NCBI GenBank assembly: GCA_025935995.1
Contig: JAICUF010000018.1
Location: 1-33,917, forward strand
DNA from: Gemmatimonadales bacterium
GTDB lineage: Bacteria > Gemmatimonadota > Gemmatimonadetes > Gemmatimonadales > GWC2-71-9
DNA: 33,917 nt
Reading direction: 5' to 3'
Part shown: piece after piece, positions 5,526 through 31,636 of the stretch
Layout: the number at the start of each line of letters is the position of its first letter
Numbering within the stretch: position 1 is the first letter of the stretch
Notes under the pieces: generated by a model
The model's database searches: none
The model's input: the letters and a program-made list of their open reading frames with translations, nothing else
Told to the model about the DNA's origin: nothing
Program-made: the position numbers and the translations under genes

Positions 5526-6959
5526 CTAGCCCGCCACCCGCGCGTGGTGGCGGCCATAGAGGAAGTAGATGGTGAGGCCGATCGCGAGCCACACGACGAG
5601 CCGGATCCAGGTCTCGATGTCGAGGCTGCTCATGAGGTAGAGCGCGGAGATGGCGCCCATCGGACTGACGAACCAGACGAGCGGGGTCCTGAAGGGACGC
5701 CGCAGCTCCGGCTCCCGCACCCGGAGGACCAGCACCCCGATCGAGACGATCACGAACGCGAGCAGCGTGCCGATCGACACCAGCTTGGCGGCGTCACGCA
5801 CCGGCAGGATGCCGGCGGGGATGGCCACGGCGATGCCGGTGAGGATCGAGGTGATCCAGGGCGTCCGGAAGCGCGGATGCACCTTGTTGACGAACGGCGG
5901 CAGGAGGCCGTCGCGCCCCATCGAGTAGAACACGCGCGACTGGCCGAGGAGCTGCACGAGGATGACCGACGTGAGACCGGCGATGGCCCCGAGCTTGATG
6001 AGCGACGAGACCCAGCCGAGCCCGGCGGCGTCGGCGACCTTCGCGATCGGATCGGGCACGTCGAGCTGCGCGTACGGCAGCACGCCGGTCGCGATCGCGG
6101 CGACCACGATGTAGAGAATGGTGCACACGATCAGCGAGCCGATGATGCCGATGGGCATGTCGCGCTGCGGGTTCTTCGCTTCCTGCGCCGCCGTGCTCAC
6201 CGCGTCGAAGCCGATGTAGGCGAAGAACACGACGCCCGCGCCGGCGGCGACGCCGCTGAAGCCGAAATGCTCGCGACTGCCGGTGTTGGGCGGAATGAAG
6301 GGGTGCCAGTTCTGCGGGTTCACCGCCTTCACCGTGAGCGCGATGAAGAGCAGGACGACGGCGAGCTTGATGAGGACGATCACGTTGTTCACGTTGGCCG
6401 ACTCGCGCACGCCGACGACGAGCAGCGTCGTGACGATCGCGACGATGATCACGGCCGGGATGTTGAAGATGGCGGTCGTGGTCGTGCCGTCGGCCAGCGT
6501 CACCACCGTGCCGCGGGCGGCCTGGAAGTGCGCCGGCACGCGGATGCCGATGTCCGCGAGGAACGACACCACGTAGCCCGACCACCCGATCGCCACCGTC
6601 GTGGCGCTCAGCGCGTACTCCAGGATCAGGTCCCACCCGATGATCCACGCCACCAGCTCGCCGAGCGTGGCGTACCCGTAGGTGTAGGCGCTGCCGGCCA
6701 TCGGCACGAGCGAGGCGAACTCGCTGTAGCAGAGCGCCGCGAAGATCGAGGCGACGCCGGCGAGGACGAACGAGAGGATCACGGCGGGCCCCGCGTTCTG
6801 CGCGGCCACGGTGCCGGTGAGGACGAAGATGCCGGTGCCGATGATGGCGCCGATCCCCAGCGCGGTCAGGTTGACCACGCCCAGCGAGCGCTTGAGACTG
6901 TGGTCGGCCTCGGCTTCGGCCTGGAGGGCGGTGACGCTCTTGCGGCGGAACAGGTCCAT
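5526..6959 (-). CDS. APC-superfamily amino acid permease (paralog A)
   Basis: LTALGIGAIIGTGIFVLTG, FFAYIGFDAVSTAAQEAKNPQRDMPIGI; about 12 TM segments; start MDLFRRKSV. Confidence 0.93.
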   Translation of the reverse strand: MDLFRRKSVTALQAEAEADHSLKRSLGVVNLTALGIGAIIGTGIFVLTGTVAAQNAGPAVILSFVLAGVASIFAALCYSEFASLVPMAGSAYTYGYATLGELVAWIIGWDLILEYALSATTVAIGWSGYVVSFLADIGIRVPAHFQAARGTVVTLADGTTTTAIFNIPAVIIVAIVTTLLVVGVRESANVNNVIVLIKLAVVLLFIALTVKAVNPQNWHPFIPPNTGSREHFGFSGVAAGAGVVFFAYIGFDAVSTAAQEAKNPQRDMPIGIIGSLIVCTILYIVVAAIATGVLPYAQLDVPDPIAKVADAAGLGWVSSLIKLGAIAGLTSVILVQLLGQSRVFYSMGRDGLLPPFVNKVHPRFRTPWITSILTGIAVAIPAGILPVRDAAKLVSIGTLLAFVIVSIGVLVLRVREPELRRPFRTPLVWFVSPMGAISALYLMSSLDIETWIRLVVWLAIGLTIYFLYGRHHARVAG

Positions 6960-7033
6960 GCGGGCCTCGGATGGAGTGGTCGGGCGCGATCGCCGGAAAT
7001 TTGCGCCACACACTTACGACGAATTGGCCGCGC

Positions 7034-7039
7034 TGTCAA
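7034..7039 (-). promoter_or_regulatory. Putative sigma70-type -35 box (TTGACA) for permease A; weak -10 TAAGTG at 7011-7016, spacer 17 nt
   Basis: Minus strand reads TTGACA-N17-TAAGTG upstream of the 6959 start. Confidence 0.35.
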
Positions 7040-7057
7040 TCACGGTGGTGCGCCCTG

Positions 7058-7087
7058 GAACAAAAGCGCCGCCTCGCGGCGGCGCTT
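7058..7087 (-). terminator. Rho-independent terminator downstream of permease B
   Basis: Perfect 10-bp stem AAGCGCCGCC-TCGC-GGCGGCGCTT (7064-7087), followed on the minus strand by TTTTG. Confidence 0.8.
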
Positions 7088-7108
7088 CGTTGCCTGGACC
7101 GGGTCGGC

Positions 7109-8677
7109 TCAGCCCATCGGCTTCCCGCCCGCCGCGATCTCCTGCTGCAGGTGGCTGTGCTTCCGTCCGTAGCTGAAGTAGATCACGAACCCGATCAGGA
7201 GCCACACGAAGAGCCGGATCCAGGTGTCGCCGGGCAGCGTCGCCATGAGCCCGAAGCAGGCGAGGATGCCGAGGATCGGCACGACGGGGACGAGCGGCGT
7301 CCGGAACGGCCGCTCGAGATCGGGGCGGGTCCGCCGCAGGATCAGGACGCCGGCGCAGACCAGCACGAAGGCGAGGAGCGTCCCGATGTTGACCAGCTCG
7401 CCCAGCAGCTGGATCGGGAAGGTACCGGTGATGACCGCGACGATGAGCCCGACGTAGATCGTGGACAGGTAGGGCGTCCGGTACTTCGGGTGCACCTTGC
7501 CGGCCCACGGCCCCATGAGGCCGTCGCGGGACATCGAGTAGAAGACGCGCGACTGGCCGAGGAGCATGACCAGCACCACGGAGCCCAGGCCGAGCACGGC
7601 GCCGATGGTGATGAACGGCGTGAGCCAGCGGAGGCCGGCCACGTTCTCCACGGCGTACGCCACGGGGTGCGCCACGTTCAGCTGGTCGTACTTGATGACG
7701 CCGGTGAGCACCATCGAGACCAGGATGTAGAGCACCGTGCAGATGGCGAGCGAGCCCAGGATCCCGATGGGCATGTCGCGCTGCGGGTTCTTCGCTTCCT
7801 GCGCCGCGGTGCTCACCGCGTCGAAGCCGATGTAGGCGAAGAAGATGAGGCCCGCGCCGCGGAAGACGCCGCTCCAGCCGAACTGGCCGAAGGTCCCGGT
7901 GTTCTGGGGAATGAACGGGTGCCAGTTGGCGGTGTTGATGTAGCCGAGGCCGAAGGCGATGAACATGAGCACCACCGCGATCTTGAGGATCACGATGATG
8001 TTGTTCACCTTGGCCGACTCCTCGATCCCGATCACCAGGATGGCGGAGGCGATGAGTACGATGGCCACGGCCGGGAGGTTGAAGAGGGCGCCCGTCGTGT
8101 TCCACCCCGCGTGAGTGCAGAAGTTCACCGCCTTGGTGACGTCGGCCGCGCTGCAGTGGATGAGCGGCGACGACGTGAGGGCGACCGGGATATGGATCCC
8201 GAGGTAGTCGAGGAGGCTCACGAAGTAGCCCGACCAGCCGACGCCGACGGTGGCGGCTCCCATCGCATACTCGAGGACCAGGTCCCACCCGATGATCCAC
8301 GCGATGAACTCGCCCATCGTCGCGTACGAGTAGGTGTAGGCGCTGCCGGCCACCGGGACGGCGCTCGCCATCTCGGCGTAGCAGAGGCCGGCAAGGCCGC
8401 AGGCGATGGCAGCGAAGACGAAGGAGATCGGAACGGCGGGTCCCGCGTGCAGCGCGGCGGCGAGGCCGGTCAGCACGAAGATCCCCGCGCCGATGATGGC
8501 ACCGATGCCGAGCATCGTGAGGTTCATCGCGCCGAGGGTGCGGTTGAGGGACCGCTCGCCGGTGGCCTCCGCTTCGGCCCGCAGTGCCGAGATCGATTTG
8601 GTGGCCCACAGTCCGGTGCCGCCGCCGTAGGTGGGCGGGCGCGACGACGGGGCGTCCTTTACATCGAGTACGCTCAT
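7109..8677 (-). CDS. APC-superfamily amino acid permease (paralog B)
   Basis: LTMLGIGAIIGAGIFVLTG, FFAYIGFDAVSTAAQEAKNPQRDMPIGIL; closely related to 5526..6959. Confidence 0.93.
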   Translation of the reverse strand: MSVLDVKDAPSSRPPTYGGGTGLWATKSISALRAEAEATGERSLNRTLGAMNLTMLGIGAIIGAGIFVLTGLAAALHAGPAVPISFVFAAIACGLAGLCYAEMASAVPVAGSAYTYSYATMGEFIAWIIGWDLVLEYAMGAATVGVGWSGYFVSLLDYLGIHIPVALTSSPLIHCSAADVTKAVNFCTHAGWNTTGALFNLPAVAIVLIASAILVIGIEESAKVNNIIVILKIAVVLMFIAFGLGYINTANWHPFIPQNTGTFGQFGWSGVFRGAGLIFFAYIGFDAVSTAAQEAKNPQRDMPIGILGSLAICTVLYILVSMVLTGVIKYDQLNVAHPVAYAVENVAGLRWLTPFITIGAVLGLGSVVLVMLLGQSRVFYSMSRDGLMGPWAGKVHPKYRTPYLSTIYVGLIVAVITGTFPIQLLGELVNIGTLLAFVLVCAGVLILRRTRPDLERPFRTPLVPVVPILGILACFGLMATLPGDTWIRLFVWLLIGFVIYFSYGRKHSHLQQEIAAGGKPMG

Positions 8678-8738
8678 CAGATGCCTCGGTTGGAGAATTG
8701 AGTCGGACTGCGGTCAGACCGGCGGCGTGGCCGCCGCC

Positions 8739-10292
8739 TCAAGCACTGTAGTTGGGCGCCTCGCGCGTGATCGTCACGTCGTGCGGATGCGACTCGCGGA
8801 GGCCGGCCGACGTCACCTGGATCATCTCGACCTCGCGCTGCAGCGCCGGAATGTCGGCGACGCCGCAGTAGCCCATCCCGCTCCGGAGGCCGCCGACCAT
8901 CTGGTAGATGACGTCCGCGACCGCCCCCTTGTAGGGCACCCGTCCCTCGATCCCCTCCGGCACCCATTTCGAGGGGGCCATCTCACCCTCCTGGAAGTAC
9001 CGGTCGGCCGAGCCGTCCTGCATGGCGGAGAGACTGCCCATGCCGCGGATCATCTTGAAGCGGCGGCCTTCGGCCAGCACGCTCTCGCCGGGGCTCTCCT
9101 CGGTGCCGGCCAGCATCGAGCCCATCATCGCGGACGACGCGCCGGAGGCGAGCGCCTTCACCATGTCGCCCGAGTACTTGATGCCGCCGTCGGCGATGAT
9201 CGGCACGTCGCCCGCGCCGCGCACGGCATCCATGATCGCCGTCACCTGCGGCACCCCGACGCCGGTGACGACGCGCGTGGTGCAGATGCTGCCGGGCCCG
9301 ATGCCCACCTTCACCGCATCCGCGCCGCGCCGCACCAGCTCGCGGGCGCCGGCCTCGGTCGCGACGTTGCCCGCGATGATCTGCGCGTCGGGAAAGGCGC
9401 GGCGGATGGCGTCGAGTGTGCCCATCACCCCTTCGCTGTGCCCATGCGCGGAGTCGATCACGATCACGTCGGCGCCGGCGCCGAGGAGGGCGCGCGCACG
9501 GGTGAGGTCGCCGGGCGTCCCGCCGACCGCCGCGGCCACCCGGAGGCGCCCGTGCTGATCCTTGTTGGCGTTGGGATGCTCGCGCCGCTTGAAGATGTCC
9601 TTGACGGTGATGAGCCCCTTGAGCACGCCCTCCCCGTCCACGACGGGCAGCTTCTCGATCCGGTGGCGCGCGAGCATCCGCTCGGCCTCGTCGAGATCGG
9701 TGCCGACCGGGGCGGTGACGAGGTTCTCGCGGGTCATCGCCTCGCCGATCGGCTGGTCGAGGTTCCGCTCGAACTGGAGGTCGCGGTTGGTCACGATGCC
9801 GACCAGCCGGCCCTGCCCGTCCACGATCGGGACGCCCGAGATCTTGAACCGGCGCATCAGCGCCACCACCTCGCGAAGCGGGCGGTCGGGGCCGAGCGTG
9901 ATCGGGTTGAGGATCATCCCGCTCTCGCTCCGCTTGACGCGATCCACCTCGGCCGCCTGGCGGTCGATGGACATGTTCTTGTGGATCACCCCGATGCCGC
10001 CGGCCCGCGCCATGGCGATGGCCATCTCGGCTTCGGTGACCGTGTCCATGGCGGCCGAGATGAGCGGGATGTTGAGCGAGATGGTGCGGGTGAGGCGGGT
10101 ACGGGTCGAGACGTCACGGGGGTGGACCGCAGAGTGTCGCGGGACCAGGAGGACGTCGTCGAAGGTGAGCCCCACCTGCGCGCGGATGCGGGGCGCCGGG
10201 AGCTCGGCGGGCTTCGGGTCGGCGGCGGATGCACGACGGCCCTCCGCGACCCCCGGAGGGGCGGAAGGGCCGTTGAGCGTCGATGGTTCCAT
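8739..10292 (-). CDS. guaB: Inosine-5'-monophosphate dehydrogenase with CBS domains
   Basis: [58 protein letters not shown]. Confidence 0.97.
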
Positions 10293-10311
10293 CTTGTAGA
10301 GTAGAGCGGAT

Positions 10312-11805
10312 TTAGCTGGAACGCAAGGCGGAGCGGCGCCACACCAGATAGACCGGAATCCCCAGCGCCACGATGAGGAGGCCGGGCCACGTGTACACCG
10401 GCTTCCGGATGAGGAGCACCACCATCAGCGCCGCCGCCGCCACCATGTAGAGGCCCGGCACGACCGGGTAGCCGAAGGCCTTCACGGGCCGCGGCAGGTC
10501 GGGCCGCTTCCGGCGAAGCCGGAAGAGCGCCAGCGTGGTCAGGAAGTAGAAGAGGACCGACGCGAAGATGACGTAGTCGAGGAGCTGGTTGTAGGTCCCG
10601 CTCAGGCAGAGGACCGAGGCCCAGACCGCCTGCACCGTGAGGCCGAAGACCGGCGTGCGGCGCCGCGGGTGCAGCTCACCGGCGCGGCGGAAGAAGAGCC
10701 GGTCCTCCGCCATCGCGTAGTACACGCGGGGCCCGGCGAGCACGAGCCCGGCGTTGCAGCCGAAGGTCGAGATCACGATCAACCCGGCCATCGCCGCCGC
10801 CCCCGCGGCGCCCAGCATCACCTCCACCGCCGACGAGGCCACGCGGTCCTGTGTCGCGTGCTGGATGCCGCGGGCCAGCGCCGTCGCGCCGTTCGCGTCG
10901 CCGGCAAAGGGAAGGACGCTGAGGTAGGAGATGTTCGCCAGGATGTAGAGGAGCGTCACCAGCCCGGTGCCGATCGCCAGCGCGCGCGGGAGATTCCGTG
11001 CGGGATCGCGCACCTCGGCCGCGGCGAAGGTGACGTTGTTCCAGGAGTCCGACGAGAAGAGCGAGCCCACCATCGCGGCGCCGATCGCGGGGAGCATGAG
11101 GAGGCCCCAGTCGCCGGTGCCCCAGAAGGTCGAGCCGCTGAAGTTGGCCGCGGCCACGTCGGCCCGCCGGAAGATCGCGATGCCGAGCACCACGAGCAGC
11201 GCCAGTGCCACGGCCTTGATCGCCGTGAGGAAGGTCTGGAGCCGGGCGCCGACCGCCACGCCCCGCGCGTTGATCCAAGTGAGGAACACGATGCTGAGGA
11301 TGGCGACGAGCCGCTGCACCGAGACCCCGAGCGGGATCGCCTCGGCCGAGCCCGGAAGCCGGATGTGGCCGAGGGAGAGGAAGATCGTGTCGCTGAGCGA
11401 CGGGAAGAAGACGGCCAGGTACTTGGCCATCGCGACCGCCACCGCCGCGATGGTGCCGGTCTGGATGACGGTGAAGAGGGTCCAGCCGAAGAGAAATCCC
11501 ACGGCGGGCGAGAGCCCTTCGCGGAGGAACACATACTGTCCCCCCGCCTTCGGCATCATCGCCGCGAGCTCCGCGTAGGCCAGCGCGCCGGCCAGCGTCA
11601 TGGCACCGGTGAGGACCCAGACCAGCATGAGCCCGCCGGGCCCCCACGCGTTCACCTGCCGGCCGATGTCGGAGGAGACGATGAAGATGCCCGAGCCGAT
11701 CATCGTGCCGACCACGAGCGAGATCGCCTGGATGGGGCCGATGCCGCGGATGAACTTCGGCTCGCCGGCGGAGGAGGCCGTCGGTGCTTCGAGAGTCGTC
11801 GCCAT
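10312..11805 (-). CDS. APC-superfamily amino acid permease (paralog C)
   Basis: [22 protein letters not shown]; about 12 TM segments. Confidence 0.92.
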
Positions 11806-25114: not shown

Positions 25115-25230
25115 GTTCACGGGTCACAGACAGTCGGTATCATCGCGGTCATATTGGCTGGCGATACCGGCTGAACGCGCCAACCCCTTGTCCAGTTTGC
25201 ACATCTCCCGTGCACGGAGAGGCCTCGACG

Positions 25231-26337
25231 ATGCCCTTCTTCTCGAAGATGATGGACCTGGCCACCGGCGGATCGGAATCGCCGGTCCGGCGGCTCCTGG
25301 TCTACTACGTCTTCATCGTGGCCATCACGGTCGGCCTCCTGTACATCTTTCCGGCCGCGAACCTCCTGTTCTCCGGCGAGCGGCTGACCGACGCGGGCGG
25401 CCCGCAGGTGCTGACCGACGGGCTGCATCGCGGCGCGGCGAGCATCGGCATCGTGGACGCGAGCACCCTGCCGCCCCGGCTCTACATGGTCGTCACGGCG
25501 TTCGCCGTGATGCTCGGGACACTGGTGCTCATGCTCCCCGTCTCGTGGGTCTACATGGCCACGCGACGCAGCACGGGCTACGTCCAGTCCATCGTGCACA
25601 CGATGCTGATCCTGCCGATCGTGGTGGCGGGGATCGTGCTCATCGTGCGGAACAGCCTGGCGCTCGCCTTCAGCCTCGCGGGCATCGTGGCCGGCGTGCG
25701 CTTCCGGGCCAACCTCAAGGACAATCGCGACACCGTCTTCATCTTCCTCGCGATCGGCGTCGGGCTTGCCGCCGGGGTGCAGGCACTCACGGTCGCCGCC
25801 ATTCTCTCGCTCGTCTTCAACTTCACGATTCTCATCGTCTGGCGGACCGACTTCGGTCGGAGCCCGCTCGACCTGGCCCAGAAGGTCGAGTGGTCGGAGC
25901 CGCTGAGCGCGCTGGTGGACAGCAACGACGGGACGCCGCCGGTGCCCGATCGGGACCTCCTCCTCACCCTCACACCCGAGAAGGCCGACGCGCTCGCCGA
26001 CCGCTTCAACCGGGTCCGCAACATGCTCGCCGGCGACCGCGGGAAGAAGACGGGAAAGCCGCGCTACAACGCGGTCCTCTCGGTGAGCGCGAGCGATGCC
26101 GAAGCGGCGAAGAAGGCCGTCGAGCCGATCCTGCAGCAGACGACGAAGCGCTTCCGGCTGGACGACGTCACGGAGCAGGAAGGGAAGCCGAGCACCCTCT
26201 ACTACCTCGTGCGGCTCCGGAAGGAGCCGTCGCAGGACGACGTACTCCACGCCATCATGAGCGCGAGCAAGGACTGTGTGCTGGGCGCCGAGTTCGAGGT
26301 GGCCAAGGATCTGGAGAAGGAGAAGTCGCAGGTATGA
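25231..26337 (+). CDS. DUF4956-family membrane protein
   Basis: Four TM segments; NSLALAFSLAGIVAGVRFRANLKDNRDTVFIFLAIGVGLAAGVQALTVAAILSLVFNFTIL typical of DUF4956. Confidence 0.82.
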   Translation: MPFFSKMMDLATGGSESPVRRLLVYYVFIVAITVGLLYIFPAANLLFSGERLTDAGGPQVLTDGLHRGAASIGIVDASTLPPRLYMVVTAFAVMLGTLVLMLPVSWVYMATRRSTGYVQSIVHTMLILPIVVAGIVLIVRNSLALAFSLAGIVAGVRFRANLKDNRDTVFIFLAIGVGLAAGVQALTVAAILSLVFNFTILIVWRTDFGRSPLDLAQKVEWSEPLSALVDSNDGTPPVPDRDLLLTLTPEKADALADRFNRVRNMLAGDRGKKTGKPRYNAVLSVSASDAEAAKKAVEPILQQTTKRFRLDDVTEQEGKPSTLYYLVRLRKEPSQDDVLHAIMSASKDCVLGAEFEVAKDLEKEKSQV

Positions 26338-27242
26338 GGGCGGCCGCCGGTGCCGCCCTCGCGTTCGTCGTGATGGCCGCCTGTTCCCCGGGGGAGAGCG
26401 CCGCGGCCCGCCAAGCCGCGCTCGACGGTCGCGCGCGCGAGGTGCGGGCCCGGGCAGCGGGCGCGGACTCCGCCATGCGCGGCGGGAAGGTGAGCGACGA
26501 CCCCATCGCGCTCTGGATCCTGCCCTACCACTACGCCGAGATCTCGGCCCTCACCCTTGCGCCGGACGGCCGTCTCTTCGCCATGGGCGACGAGAACAGC
26601 GAGATCTGGCAGATCGACTGGCTGCGGGGCGTCGTGCTCGGACGGTTCACGGTCGGCGACCCCGCGATCCAGGCCGACTTCGAGGGCATGGTCGCCGTGG
26701 ACAGCGCGCTCTACCTCATGGACAGCAAGGGTCGCATCTACCGCACCGTGGTCGGCCCCGACGGCGGCACGGTGCCCTACGACGAGTTCGACGCGGGGCT
26801 CGGCAAGGAGTGCGAGTTCGAGGGGCTGAGCTACGATCCCGCGAGCTCGCTCCTCCTCCTCGGCTGCAAGCACGTCGGGAAGGGCGCGCCGCGGGATGCG
26901 CTCGTCATCTACCGGGTCTCGCCCGGCGCGCGCGCGACGGCCAGCACGCCGATCGTCGTGCCGCGCTCGGCGCTCAACGCCGCCGGCGGCCAGTGGCACG
27001 AGTTTTCGGTCTCGGAGCTCACGCGGGATCCCCGAACCGGCAACTTCCTCGTCATGGCCGCGCTGCAGCGCGCGCTGGTGGAGATCACGCCGTCGGGCCA
27101 GCTGGTCCGGGCGGGATCGATCCCCGGCCATCACCGGCAGCCCGAAGGCGCCGCCATCACGCCCGACGGCCGCCTGATCGTGGCCGACGAGGCCGCGGGC
27201 GACCGCCCGATCATCAGCGTCTATCCGTCAACAGGAATCTGA
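26334..27242 (+). CDS. Lipoprotein with SdiA-regulated / phytase-like beta-propeller
   Basis: Lipobox FVVMAAC; AEISALTLAPDGRLFAMGDENSEIWQIDW..., CEFEGLSYDPASSLLLLGCK; ATGA overlap with DUF4956. Confidence 0.82.
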   Translation: MRAAAGAALAFVVMAACSPGESAAARQAALDGRAREVRARAAGADSAMRGGKVSDDPIALWILPYHYAEISALTLAPDGRLFAMGDENSEIWQIDWLRGVVLGRFTVGDPAIQADFEGMVAVDSALYLMDSKGRIYRTVVGPDGGTVPYDEFDAGLGKECEFEGLSYDPASSLLLLGCKHVGKGAPRDALVIYRVSPGARATASTPIVVPRSALNAAGGQWHEFSVSELTRDPRTGNFLVMAALQRALVEITPSGQLVRAGSIPGHHRQPEGAAITPDGRLIVADEAAGDRPIISVYPSTGI

Positions 27243-28393
27243 TGCGACGGTTCTTCCTTCCGGTACTGGGGCTGGCGTCCGCCTGCGGCGGCTACACGGC
27301 GCCCATCACGCCGACCGGCGATGTCACGCCACCCGTGGTGGCCGCGTCGCCGGCCCAGCTCGAGAGCACGCTCTTCCTCATCGGCGACGCCGGCAGTCCG
27401 GGCAAGGACGACCCGGTGCTCGCGGCCCTCACGAAGCAGGTCGAGGCCACGCCGGGCAAGCGCGTCATCGTCTTCCTGGGCGACAACATCTACCTCAAGG
27501 GGATGCCCGATACCGGCGGCGTCGGCCGGAAGGAGGCCGAGCGGCGGATCGACGAGCAGCTCAAGGTCGCGCTCAGCAGCCGCACGGAGACGTACTTCAT
27601 TCCGGGCAATCACGACTGGGGCTACATGGGCCCCAGCGGCTTCGAGGCGATCAAGCGCGAGGGCGACTACATCGACAGCAAGGGCGCGCCGTTCGCGCGG
27701 ATGGTGCCGCACGGCGGCTGCCCCGGGCCCGAATACGTCGATCCGAGCCCGCATCTCCGGATCGTCATGATCGACACGCAGTGGTGGCTGCACGACTACG
27801 ACCGCCCGCGCGATTCGACCTCCGCCTGTCCCTTCTACACACCGGCGGCCGTCGTCAATGCGCTCAACCGGCAGCTCCTGACTGCGGGCGACCGCCACGT
27901 GATCGTCGCCGGCCATCACCCGCTCGCCTCCGGCGGCATGCACGGCGGCAACATCGGCTTCTCGACCCACATCTTTCCACTGCGGGAGCTCCGGCCGTGG
28001 CTCTACATCCCGCTGCCGATCATCGGCTCCTACTACGCCTTCAATCGCGAGCAGGGCTCGTCCGATCAGGACATCGCTGGGCCCAAGAACGAGCGGATGC
28101 GGCGCGCGCTCGAGCTCGTCTTCTCGGTCCGAAAGCCGCTCGTCTACGCCGCGGGCCATGACCACGGGCTCCAGGTCCTGACCGGCCGCACGGCACGGCA
28201 CCTCCTCGTCAGCGGCGCGGGCATCATCAACCACGAGGAGCGGGTCGCCTACACCTCCCGCACCGAATACGCGGCGTCGCTGCCCGGCTTCATGCGGCTC
28301 GACATCCTCAAGGACCGGCAGGTGCGGCTCGGCGTCGAGACGGTGGACGACAAGGGTGTCATCACCGAAACCTTCGCCGAATACCTGAAGTAG
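27242..28393 (+). CDS. Secreted calcineurin-like metallophosphoesterase
   Basis: TLFLIGDAGSPGKDDPVL, VIVFLGDNIYLKGMP, FIPGNHDWGYMG, VIVAGHHPLASGGMHGG, YAAGHDHGLQ; TGATG junction. Confidence 0.93.
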   Translation: MRRFFLPVLGLASACGGYTAPITPTGDVTPPVVAASPAQLESTLFLIGDAGSPGKDDPVLAALTKQVEATPGKRVIVFLGDNIYLKGMPDTGGVGRKEAERRIDEQLKVALSSRTETYFIPGNHDWGYMGPSGFEAIKREGDYIDSKGAPFARMVPHGGCPGPEYVDPSPHLRIVMIDTQWWLHDYDRPRDSTSACPFYTPAAVVNALNRQLLTAGDRHVIVAGHHPLASGGMHGGNIGFSTHIFPLRELRPWLYIPLPIIGSYYAFNREQGSSDQDIAGPKNERMRRALELVFSVRKPLVYAAGHDHGLQVLTGRTARHLLVSGAGIINHEERVAYTSRTEYAASLPGFMRLDILKDRQVRLGVETVDDKGVITETFAEYLK

Positions 28394-28400
28394 GCCACCG

Positions 28401-30983
28401 ATGCGACTGCCAGCCGCGATCGCCGCTCTCGTCCTCCTCGCCACCGGGCCGGTCGCCGGGCAGTCGGCCCGGCCGGTGGTGGGGTCCGACACCGTCCTCA
28501 CCTACGCCGACAGCAGCTTCGTGGCAGGCGGCTTCCACCGGTTCCTCTTCGGCCGCGAGTACCGCAAGGTATGGGAGCGCCCGATCCGGGCGCCCGTGCT
28601 CGACCTCGCCCGGTTCGACGGCGGGCTCAAGCCCACCAAGCTGGGCGGCGGCCTCCAGACGAAGTCGCTCCGGTTCGAGAGCGGCGACGGCCGGGAATGG
28701 GTCTTCCGCACCGTCCGGAAGGACGCGCGGCTCATCCTTCCCGAAGGCCTCCGCCGCTCCTTCGTGGCCGAGCTCGTCAACGACCAGCTCAGCCACTCGA
28801 ATCCAGGCGGAGCGCTCACCGTCCCGGTGATGCTCGACCAGCTGGGCGTCCTCCACGCGACGCCGCAGTTCGCCGTGATGCCGGACGATGCCAGACTCGG
28901 GGAGTACCGTGAGGCGTTCGCCGGCAAGCTCGGGCTCCTCGAGGAATTTCCCGACGACGGCCCCGACGGAACGCCGGGGTTCGCGGGGTCCACCAAGATC
29001 GGCAACAGTCTCGATCTGCTCGAGAAGCTCAACGACGATCCGGACGACCGCGTGGACACGCGGAAGTTCCTCACCGCCCGCCTCTTCGACCTCCTGATCA
29101 ACGACTGGGACCGCCACAAGGACCAGTGGAAGTGGGCCCGCTTCGATCGGGGCGACGGGCACGTCTGGGAGCCGATCCCTCGCGATCGCGACCAGGCCTA
29201 CATCTGGTTCGACGGGGTCTTTCCCAGCCTCGCACGGTTCGGCGCGCCCAAGCTCATCGGCTTCGACTCGACCTACCCGAGCCTGCAGGGCCTCACGCTG
29301 AATGGCCGCGAGCTCGACCTCGCCCTCCTCAACGGCCTCGAGTGGCCGGTGTGGGACTCCGTCGCCCACTTCGTGCATGACCGCCTGACCGACCAGGTGA
29401 TCGACTCCGCGCTCACGCTCATGCCGCTCGAATATCAGCGGCTCACGAGCGAGCGGGTGGCCCGGGTGCTGAAGGCGCGACGGGAGGCGCTTCCGGCGGA
29501 GGCCCGACGGTTCTACGAAATGCTGGCGAAGACGGTGGACATCCATGCGACCGATGCGCGCGATCTCGCGCTGATCGATCGGGACAGTGCGGGCGGGGTG
29601 CGCGTCCGTCTCATCGACGCGCGGAAGAAGGAGCCCGGCGCGGTGGCCGCGCGTGAGCCCTACTTCGACCGCCGCTTCCTGCCGAAGGAGACCAGCGAGA
29701 TCCGCGTCTATCTCCACGGCGGGGGCGACAGCGCGATCGTGCGGGGCCGGAGCGAGCGGGGCATCAAGCTCCGCGTAATCGGCGGCAAGGGCGACAACCG
29801 GCTGGTGGATTCGTCGCGGGTCGCCCTGGACGCGCACGCCACCCACTTCTACGACAACGGCCCGGGCCCGCACGAGCTGACCTACGGACCGGACACGCTC
29901 TTCAGCCGGCGGCCGCAGCTCGTCGAGCACGGCGACACGCTCATCCCCCCGCCGGATTTCGGGAAGAGGATGGCCCCGGCGCTCCGGTTCCGTTATTCGA
30001 CCGACGTCGGCATCCTCTTCGGTGCGGGCATCACCGTGGACCAGTATGCCTTCCGGACCTGGCCGTTCTGGTACTCCACCTCCGTCTGGGCGGAACGCGG
30101 CACCGGCCCGAACGACACCCGGGTCACGGGCGGCGCGGACATCTATCGAGAGCACCATTCGTCGCATTTCCGCCTCTTCGGGCAGATCTCGGGACTCGAG
30201 CTGATCCGCTACTACGGACAGGGCAACGAGACCGTGCGCCCCGACGAGGGGCGGCCGTTCAAGGTGGAGAACACCCAGTACCGGCTCGATGCGTCGCTCG
30301 CCTTCCCGCTCGGCTCGGGCGAGTTCCGCATCGGCCCCACGCTCCAGTACACCACGAGCGGCGGCGACAGTCTCTCCTTCATCGAACGCACCGCGCCCTA
30401 CGGCTCCGGCGACTTCGGTCAGGCAGGCGGCCAGTTCTATGCGTCGCTCGACACCCGCGACAATCCCGGCATGCCCCGGCGCGGCGTCCGGCTGCTCGCG
30501 AGCGGGTCGCTCTTCCCCGCGGTCTGGAGCGTGACCGGCACCTTCGGCGAGGTGCATGGCGAGGCGGCGACCTACCTCGGCGCGAAGCTTCCCCTCGAGC
30601 CGGTGCTGGCGCTGCGCGTCGGCGGGAAGAAGGTCTGGGGCGACTACCCCTACTTCGAGTCGGCATTCCTGGGCGGCCCCGAGGACCTGCGCGGCTTCGA
30701 CATGAACCGGTTCGCGGGCGATGCCTCGGTCTGGGGCAACGCGGAGCTGCGCCTCCGGCTCGGTGCGCTGCACCTGCTCGTCCCGGGGAGCATCGGCATC
30801 CATGGGATGGCCGATCTCGGCCGCGTCTGGGCGCCGGGAGAGACCTCGGACCGCCTGCATCACGCCTTCGGCGGCGGCCTCTGGTTCAGCGTCGACGGCC
30901 CGGTGACGACGCTCAGCCTCACGATCGCGCACAGCGACGAGCGCAGCACCGGCTTCTACGCCCGGGCGGGGTTCGGCTTCTGA
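28401..30983 (+). CDS. Kinase-like domain fused to Omp85/BamA-type outer-membrane barrel
   Basis: Signal peptide; WVFRTVRKD, DLLINDWDRHKDQWKWARFD, EPIPRDRDQAYIWFDG kinase-like motifs; C-terminal FLGGPEDLRGFDMNRFAGDASVWGNAELRLRLG barrel; terminal Phe. Confidence 0.8.
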   Translation: MRLPAAIAALVLLATGPVAGQSARPVVGSDTVLTYADSSFVAGGFHRFLFGREYRKVWERPIRAPVLDLARFDGGLKPTKLGGGLQTKSLRFESGDGREWVFRTVRKDARLILPEGLRRSFVAELVNDQLSHSNPGGALTVPVMLDQLGVLHATPQFAVMPDDARLGEYREAFAGKLGLLEEFPDDGPDGTPGFAGSTKIGNSLDLLEKLNDDPDDRVDTRKFLTARLFDLLINDWDRHKDQWKWARFDRGDGHVWEPIPRDRDQAYIWFDGVFPSLARFGAPKLIGFDSTYPSLQGLTLNGRELDLALLNGLEWPVWDSVAHFVHDRLTDQVIDSALTLMPLEYQRLTSERVARVLKARREALPAEARRFYEMLAKTVDIHATDARDLALIDRDSAGGVRVRLIDARKKEPGAVAAREPYFDRRFLPKETSEIRVYLHGGGDSAIVRGRSERGIKLRVIGGKGDNRLVDSSRVALDAHATHFYDNGPGPHELTYGPDTLFSRRPQLVEHGDTLIPPPDFGKRMAPALRFRYSTDVGILFGAGITVDQYAFRTWPFWYSTSVWAERGTGPNDTRVTGGADIYREHHSSHFRLFGQISGLELIRYYGQGNETVRPDEGRPFKVENTQYRLDASLAFPLGSGEFRIGPTLQYTTSGGDSLSFIERTAPYGSGDFGQAGGQFYASLDTRDNPGMPRRGVRLLASGSLFPAVWSVTGTFGEVHGEAATYLGAKLPLEPVLALRVGGKKVWGDYPYFESAFLGGPEDLRGFDMNRFAGDASVWGNAELRLRLGALHLLVPGSIGIHGMADLGRVWAPGETSDRLHHAFGGGLWFSVDGPVTTLSLTIAHSDERSTGFYARAGFGF

Positions 30984-30985
30984 CG

Positions 30986-31636
30986 CTGGGAGCCGAGCCC
31001 GCGCGGTGGCGGCAGCTCTGGCGCCGGCTCGGCGCCCGCGGCGAGGCCGACACGGCCCTCGCCGTCATCCTCGGCCACTACGGCTCCGATCGCCGTGCCT
31101 ACCACGATCTTCGCCACCTCACCGAGTGCCTCGCCCTCTTCGACGAGGTGTCGTCGCGCGCGCGCCAGCCCGATGAGGTGGAGGCAGCGCTCTGGTTCCA
31201 CGACGCGATCTACGACCCCGACGCCGGCGACAACGAGGAGCGGAGCGCCGCGCTCGCCGAAACGCTCCTCGGGGGAGCCGGCGTCCGGACCGAGCACCTA
31301 GCGGAAATCCGCCGGCTGATTCTCGCGACCGGGCATCGCGGCAGCCGCGATGCGTCGGACGACGCCGCGCTCATCACCGACATCGACCTGGCGATCTTCG
31401 GCAGCGATCCCGCGCGGTTCGACGAGTACGAACGCGACATCCGGCGCGAGTATGCCTTCGTCCCCGACGGCGAGTTTCGCCGGCGCCGCGCGCAGATCCT
31501 CGAGTCGTTCATGGCCCGGCCGACCGTCTTCGCCACACCGTGGTTCATCGAGCGGCTGGAGACCCGTGCCCGCGCGAACCTTGGCCGGTCGATCACATCC
31601 CTCAGATTGGTTGACCCCCCGGCCCCGGGAGCCTAG
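30986..31636 (+). CDS. HD-superfamily metal-dependent phosphohydrolase (putative CTG start at 30986 or 30980)
   Basis: In-frame RAYHDLRHLTECLALFDEV (upstream of GTG 31148) plus VEAALWFHDAIYDPDAGDNEERSA; no ATG/GTG/TTG 5' of 31148 in this frame. Confidence 0.85.
   Translation: MGAEPARWRQLWRRLGARGEADTALAVILGHYGSDRRAYHDLRHLTECLALFDEVSSRARQPDEVEAALWFHDAIYDPDAGDNEERSAALAETLLGGAGVRTEHLAEIRRLILATGHRGSRDASDDAALITDIDLAIFGSDPARFDEYERDIRREYAFVPDGEFRRRRAQILESFMARPTVFATPWFIERLETRARANLGRSITSLRLVDPPAPGA

Follow-up and report, generated by a model that had tools for sequence, protein, structure and literature searches.

A four-gene envelope cluster of a Gemmatimonadales bacterium with a kinase-like/Omp85 protein and a probable link to polyphosphate

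The stretch of DNA analysed here (the window, 33,917 nucleotides) is the entire contig C125 of a Gemmatimonadota metagenome-assembled genome (MAG; 2.86 Mb, 87% complete). On its plus strand lie genes for a DUF4956 inner-membrane protein, an SdiA-type propeller (PROP), a metallophosphatase (MPE) and a kinase-like/Omp85 fusion (KOMP), followed by a small HD-type open reading frame (ORF) (Table 1). The DUF4956 and PROP genes overlap by ATGA, the PROP stop codon TGA and the MPE start have one base in common (TGATG, 27240-27244) and 7 nt separate MPE from KOMP. An initial annotation had placed five plus-strand ORFs here with these junctions, and all coordinates were correct when read again. The ratio of nonsynonymous to synonymous substitution rates (dN/dS) against the nearest relative, a sister "Gemmatimonadales bacterium" MAG in which KOMP is 87% identical, is 0.04 for DUF4956, 0.05 for MPE, 0.13 for KOMP, 0.17 for PROP and 0.19 for the HD ORF; all five are therefore real genes under purifying selection. 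The first four form one set.

Table 1. Features of the gene set and its immediate surroundings, with positions in the window.
Feature	Positions	Strand	Evidence and remarks
DUF4956 inner-membrane protein, 368 aa	25231..26337	+	PF16316, E 8.1e-9
PROP, predicted lipoprotein beta-propeller, SdiA-regulated family, 302 aa	26334..27242	+	PF06977, E 1.5e-8, above cut-off
MPE, predicted lipoprotein metallophosphatase, purple-acid-phosphatase-like, 383 aa	27242..28393	+	PF00149, E 2.9e-6
KOMP, signal peptide, kinase-like domain, small beta region and Omp85 barrel, 860 aa	28401..30983	+	PF01103, E 2.7e-10
KOMP kinase-like domain (approximate)	28530..29645	+	Motifs FRxVxKD, GDWDRHxDQWRWA and PIPRDRDQAF; predicted fold
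HD-type small ORF	30980..31636	+	Real gene, outside the system; CTG start needed; no Pfam match
Sigma-70-like promoter match (weak)	25116..25143	+	Just 5' of DUF4956; consensus match only

Relatives of KOMP were drawn from family, order and phylum searches of Gemmatimonadota genomes, 215 of 395 of which have a match. Hidden Markov models built from the first relatives were used to score 73 complete KOMP loci for partners within 8 kb; long open frames or family coverage guided the choice of some loci, the presence of the polyphosphate kinase PPK1 that of none. DUF4956 was found within this distance in 36 of the 73 loci, MPE in 29, PROP in 21, PPK1 in 22 and the exopolyphosphatase Ppx in two. 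In 52 loci at least one partner is present, and with few exceptions it shares the strand of KOMP and lies no more than 3.5 kb away. The loci span five family groups of the phylum (f1, f2, f4, f5 and f6). With D for DUF4956, S for PROP, M for MPE, K for KOMP and CP for a CYTH-PPK1 protein, the gene orders include D-S-M-K (the window), D-M-K-CP, D-K-CP, D-S-K, D-CP-K and D-CP-K-S-M, besides others, and such shuffling argues for retained function and not for recent common descent. The neighbourhood thus extends well beyond close relatives, to several families of the phylum and, for PROP with MPE-KOMP, to Bacteroidota. KOMP frames of 1200-1375 aa in some Gemmatimonadota were considered as MPE fusions and rejected as upstream read-through of a GC-rich frame.

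The evidence from the second phylum comes from plasmid records. A search for fused phosphatase-Omp85 proteins, proposed with the initial annotation, found them in Persicobacter and Hymenobacter, with the domain order of MPE plus KOMP and homologous domains, as one polypeptide where the window has two genes. The Persicobacter protein (L113) carries MPE, the kinase-like domain and the barrel in one frame of 1215 residues, and the gene directly upstream is a PROP homologue (SdiA-regulated, E 1.4e-8). The Hymenobacter fusion (L112:4528-8502) has degenerate phosphatase motifs and a degenerate DR motif in its kinase part; the annotation of the Hymenobacter copies is just hypothetical protein. The fusion argues that MPE and KOMP act together. 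Neither DUF4956 nor PPK1 was found beside the Bacteroidota plasmid copies. An undecaprenyl-diphosphate phosphatase gene lies upstream of the Hymenobacter fusion.

A second kind of evidence links the set to polyphosphate (polyP). The gene for PPK1 recurs 3' of KOMP or behind DUF4956, and in most cases the protein has a CYTH domain added at its N-terminus, before the N, middle, C1 and C2 domains of PP_kinase. Of the 38 loci that have 7 kb or more of sequence on each side, 11 contain PPK1, against about 0.2 expected by chance, a value that we estimated from one to two PPK1 per ~3.5 Mb genome and that ignores phylogeny. A tree of the KOMP kinase-like domain requires 10 or more changes of PPK1 adjacency, a count inflated by truncated contigs, so that the adjacency is not one inherited accident. 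DUF4956 and PPK1 share one ORF in two genera (L138:8960-11899 and L139:7929-10754, both on the minus strand), and NCBIfam TIGR03705 identifies the second half of the L138 protein as polyphosphate kinase 1 (716.6 bits, cut-off 466). In three further loci (L152, L154 and L155) CYTH-PPK1 directly follows DUF4956 without KOMP, and in two (L048 and L111) Ppx/GppA and PPK1 come after KOMP. The idea of the initial annotation that the system handles phosphate polymers has gained support from the 22 loci with PPK1 and from the DUF4956-PPK1 fusions, and the gene set is very probably linked to polyP in function. A Ppx-PPK1 pair adjoins the DUF4956-PPK1 ORF in both L138 and L139, in the opposite direction.

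The kinase-like domain of KOMP occupies residues ~45-415, the small beta region ~420-530 and the barrel 617-857. The barrel passes the Pfam cut-off of PF01103 (40.7 bits against 24), and its NCBIfam Omp85_fam score lies under the cut-off (62.5 against 200). No Pfam family matched the N-terminal half, no POTRA domain was matched by Pfam (in the model residues 420-525 make up the small beta region, whose fold is unassigned) and a sequence search of the PDB with KOMP gave nothing meaningful. Residues 24-530 were modelled with AlphaFold from 31 homologues, with a predicted local distance difference test score (pLDDT) of 86.8 and a predicted TM-score (pTM) of 0.88. The best Foldseek match of the model in the PDB was CotH of Bacillus cereus (5jd9, E 1.8e-5), followed by CtkA of Helicobacter pylori (9e-5) and PI4KII-alpha (1.3e-4), with HipA and Fam20 lower. 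The TM-scores by query were modest, 0.30-0.32, partly since the query spans other regions. The initial annotation had called this domain kinase-like, and the structural check bears it out: the modelled domain has a CotH/PI4K/HipA-like kinase fold.

Seven residues of KOMP are kept in the 31 homologues: K107, D235, D237, Q242, D262, R263 and D264. In the model K107 ends a strand, D235, D237 and Q242 (GDWDRHxDQW) come after a helix, and a beta hairpin precedes D262-R263-D264. Conservation exceeds 90% at the acidic and lysine positions that an active site should have, and the modelled arrangement of the conserved positions fits an active site. The usual catalytic-loop Asn is replaced by Gln in most members; Asn is back in L047 and L112. 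A tandem duplication of KOMP is seen in L061 and L105.

MPE passes the PF00149 cut-off of Pfam (28.3 bits against 21.5) and matches human purple acid phosphatase with an E value of 5e-5. Its metal-binding motifs (GD49-x-G, GDN82, GNHD125, HH226 and GHDH308) are kept across 19 sequences, and by these motifs the phosphatase site is intact. A lipobox-type Cys stands in the same column, plus or minus one position, in all homologues whose N-terminus is intact, and MPE is for this reason probably a lipoprotein; of the earlier description as a secreted metallophosphatase the phosphatase part stands, while plain secretion does not. Where MPE is absent, a different metallophosphatase (L042:10262-11086, PF00149, E 3.7e-13) follows KOMP in one locus, as if a replacement. 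In L072 and L077 the DUF4956-KOMP pair is flanked by two MPE-type genes, one per side and on opposite strands.

The N-terminus of PROP reads MRAAAGAALAFVVMAAC. The propeller had been called phytase-like; PF13449 is under its cut-off, and SdiA-regulated is the better name. DUF4956 passes the Pfam cut-off of PF16316 (35.9 bits against 30.6). Its AlphaFold model (pLDDT 79, pTM 0.59) has about six membrane helices (18-39, 82-111, 119-139, 143-161, 165-182 and 186-206) and a C-terminal domain (residues 281-357) with the order E-H-E-E-H-E, a predicted ferredoxin/ACT-like beta-alpha fold. Weak fold matches of this domain include the C-terminal domain of MgtC (2lqj, E 0.013), which were not used for function.

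The HD ORF was proposed as the fifth member of the system and is excluded from it, because only the two nearest relatives, L032 and L033, keep it after KOMP, and in both of these M48 and TerC genes come next as well. Its first ATG, GTG or TTG is the GTG at 31148. In L032 the ORF is conserved 5' of the first standard start, to the CTG that overlaps the KOMP stop, which hints at a non-standard start. Two sigma-70-like matches lie in the region against 0.2 expected (weak evidence from consensus only), no terminator-like site was found inside the gene set (also weak evidence) and none of the five proteins matched the PADLOC models of anti-phage defence. Elsewhere in the window (5526-11805, minus strand) an IMP dehydrogenase gene is flanked by three amino-acid permease genes.

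What the analysis establishes is the gene set with its conservation, the fusions, the association with PPK1, the kinase fold of the model and the intact phosphatase site. The mechanism proposed on this basis adds inferences on polyP export, donor, substrate and the location of each domain. PPK1, often as CYTH-PPK1, would make polyP in the cytosol at its membrane partner DUF4956. DUF4956 would tether the synthase and probably carry polyP chains, or the phosphate in them, through the inner membrane, like the membrane part of yeast VTC, by which polyP is made in the cytosol and translocated, into the vacuole (PMC4641920). The CotH-fold domain, held on the Omp85 barrel in the outer membrane, would transfer phosphate to targets in the envelope or at the surface, or bind polyP. 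With no ATP in the periplasm, the donor or substrate is likely to be polyP. The use of polyP as a phosphate donor has a precedent in MprB (PMC8605609). The MPE lipoprotein would remove or trim phosphate and so reverse the modification, and the PROP lipoprotein may be a scaffold or sensor. The chances are even that the four genes are one variant of a polyP-coupled envelope module working in this way. The narrower proposal, that polyP supplied through PPK1 and DUF4956 is the donor for an outer-membrane kinase and allows phosphorylation of the envelope or surface without ATP, reversible by MPE, is unlikely and is put forward tentatively.

Several observations weigh against the proposal. The main weakness is that the cluster of the window has no PPK1 of its own, the PPK1 of this genome being on contig C212. 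PPK1 is absent within 8 kb in 51 of the 73 KOMP loci, many of them on short contigs, and 23 KOMP-type loci (for example L052, L090 and L047) have no listed partner nearby. The Foldseek search with DUF4956 gave no match below 0.001, only the generic ferredoxin/ACT-like C-terminal fold, and so lends no support to export. The N-terminal domain of PlpD-like Omp85 proteins goes to the surface, where a supply of polyP is harder to arrange. The likeness to CotH also has its limits: the CotH family PF08757 gave no Pfam match in the KOMP homologues (best E 0.31, in 2 of 31), and the comparison of the KOMP kinase-like profile with the CotH profile by hhalign was non-significant (E 0.08, probability <1%). 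By sequence KOMP is not a member of the CotH family, and the likeness is structural only, as judged from the model.

Three other explanations were considered. Somewhat unlikely, yet the strongest of them, is type Vd-like (PlpD-like) secretion, in which KOMP would bring the kinase-like passenger to the surface (in Bacteroidota together with the phosphatase), phosphate would be scavenged from extracellular esters or polyP, and PPK1 would just store the gains. The layout of an N-terminal enzyme and a barrel is that of the patatin-Omp85 proteins, MPE is a predicted lipoprotein phosphatase with an intact site, the phosphatase is fused in L113, and the storage enzymes PPK1 and PPX are found next door. 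Scavenging, however, would not require a kinase fold, the fusion of DUF4956 with PPK1 suggests that synthesis is coupled at the inner membrane, and the recurrent neighbours that were seen include neither a phosphate transporter nor Pho genes. It is quite improbable that the kinase-like domain is a pseudokinase or of AMPylase type, the module modifying or assembling an outer-membrane component and the polyP genes being nearby for general stress reasons. The Gln at the catalytic-loop position would suit this explanation, as would the closest folds, which include atypical kinases of varied chemistry; the retention of the expected acidic and lysine positions and the Asn of some members speak for a working kinase. 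That there is no joint mechanism, and that phosphate-related envelope genes tend to cluster in one phylum, agrees with the modular membership and the 23 loci without a listed partner but is very improbable given two different fusions (DUF4956-PPK1 and MPE-KOMP), the conserved junctions and the conservation of PROP with MPE-KOMP in a second phylum.

The polyP-coupled module touches two open questions, how kinases outside the cytoplasm act without ATP and what DUF4956 does with its CotH and polyP neighbours. The DUF4956-PPK1 and phosphatase-kinase-Omp85 fusions tie the families together physically and offer single proteins to test. Gemmatimonas aurantiaca is polyP-accumulating according to the title of its 2003 species description (cited in PMC8779627), which makes Gemmatimonadota a reasonable phylum in which to expect a polyP system of the envelope. 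Apart from the kinase-like domain, for which Pfam has no model, the components belong to known families. The literature searched, which excluded most subscription journals, was found to describe neither a kinase-like Omp85 protein nor DUF4956-PPK1.

Among known systems, yeast VTC likewise links a CYTH-class domain with polyP synthesis and with a partner protein in the membrane; here the synthase is PPK1 instead, and DUF4956 cannot be recognised as the membrane domain of VTC. PlpD (patatin-Omp85, type Vd) shares the enzyme domain N-terminal to an Omp85 barrel, whereas KOMP is kinase-like, not patatin, and has no POTRA that Pfam recognises. In a survey of the Omp85 superfamily (PMC4104836) "kinase" and "metallophosph" are both absent from the main text; a kinase-like domain on the barrel adds one more to the enzymes that this transporter family is known to carry. 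CotH (5jd9), CtkA, PI4KII-alpha, HipA and Fam20 share the predicted fold of the KOMP N-terminal domain and have the D/D catalytic motifs in similar order. KOMP differs from CotH and the atypical kinases in its ~12% identity, the lack of a significant profile match, the Gln for Asn and the attached barrel.

In group f2, for which Gemmatimonadaceae is our own reading of the group code and not a database label, the gene after DUF4956 encodes a secreted protein with the CotH-like motifs GNTDWS..LHN and YDFDW, hardly recognised by Pfam (best CotH E 0.012), as in L148, L149 (5592-7639), L150, L151 and L153. In several of these loci a type I phosphodiesterase (PF01663) lies beside DUF4956. The profile of the CotH-like protein gave non-significant comparisons both with CotH and with the KOMP kinase domain, and it is on account of the former that the protein is treated as a lead. 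As a lead, these loci repeat the theme of DUF4956, an extracytoplasmic kinase-like protein and a phosphatase with unrelated parts.

The closest parallel is published. A CotH kinase, a VTC-type polyP polymerase and DUF4956 adjoin pel operons in Streptococcus, Clostridium and Bifidobacterium, as a set left functionally unexplained (PMC7112168). The initial annotation had named this association, which is indeed a published one, but VTC is rare in the phylum (3 of 200 genomes), with PPK1 in its place. DUF4956 and a CotH-type protein stand beside VTC in two genomes (G018 and G118), and the genome of the window has no VTC or CotH match, so that the full set is absent from it. Both arrangements have DUF4956, an extracytoplasmic kinase of CotH fold (in KOMP a predicted one) and a polyP-making enzyme as neighbours. 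The module differs in having PPK1, often with CYTH, for VTC, in carrying the kinase on an Omp85 barrel, in the lack of pel genes and in the addition of a predicted lipoprotein phosphatase and a propeller, in a Gram-negative envelope. We read it as a variant of the published set that has PPK1 in the role of VTC and a kinase anchored to the outer membrane. If polyP is indeed the donor, the same logic would also explain the CotH-VTC-DUF4956 set of Gram-positive bacteria.

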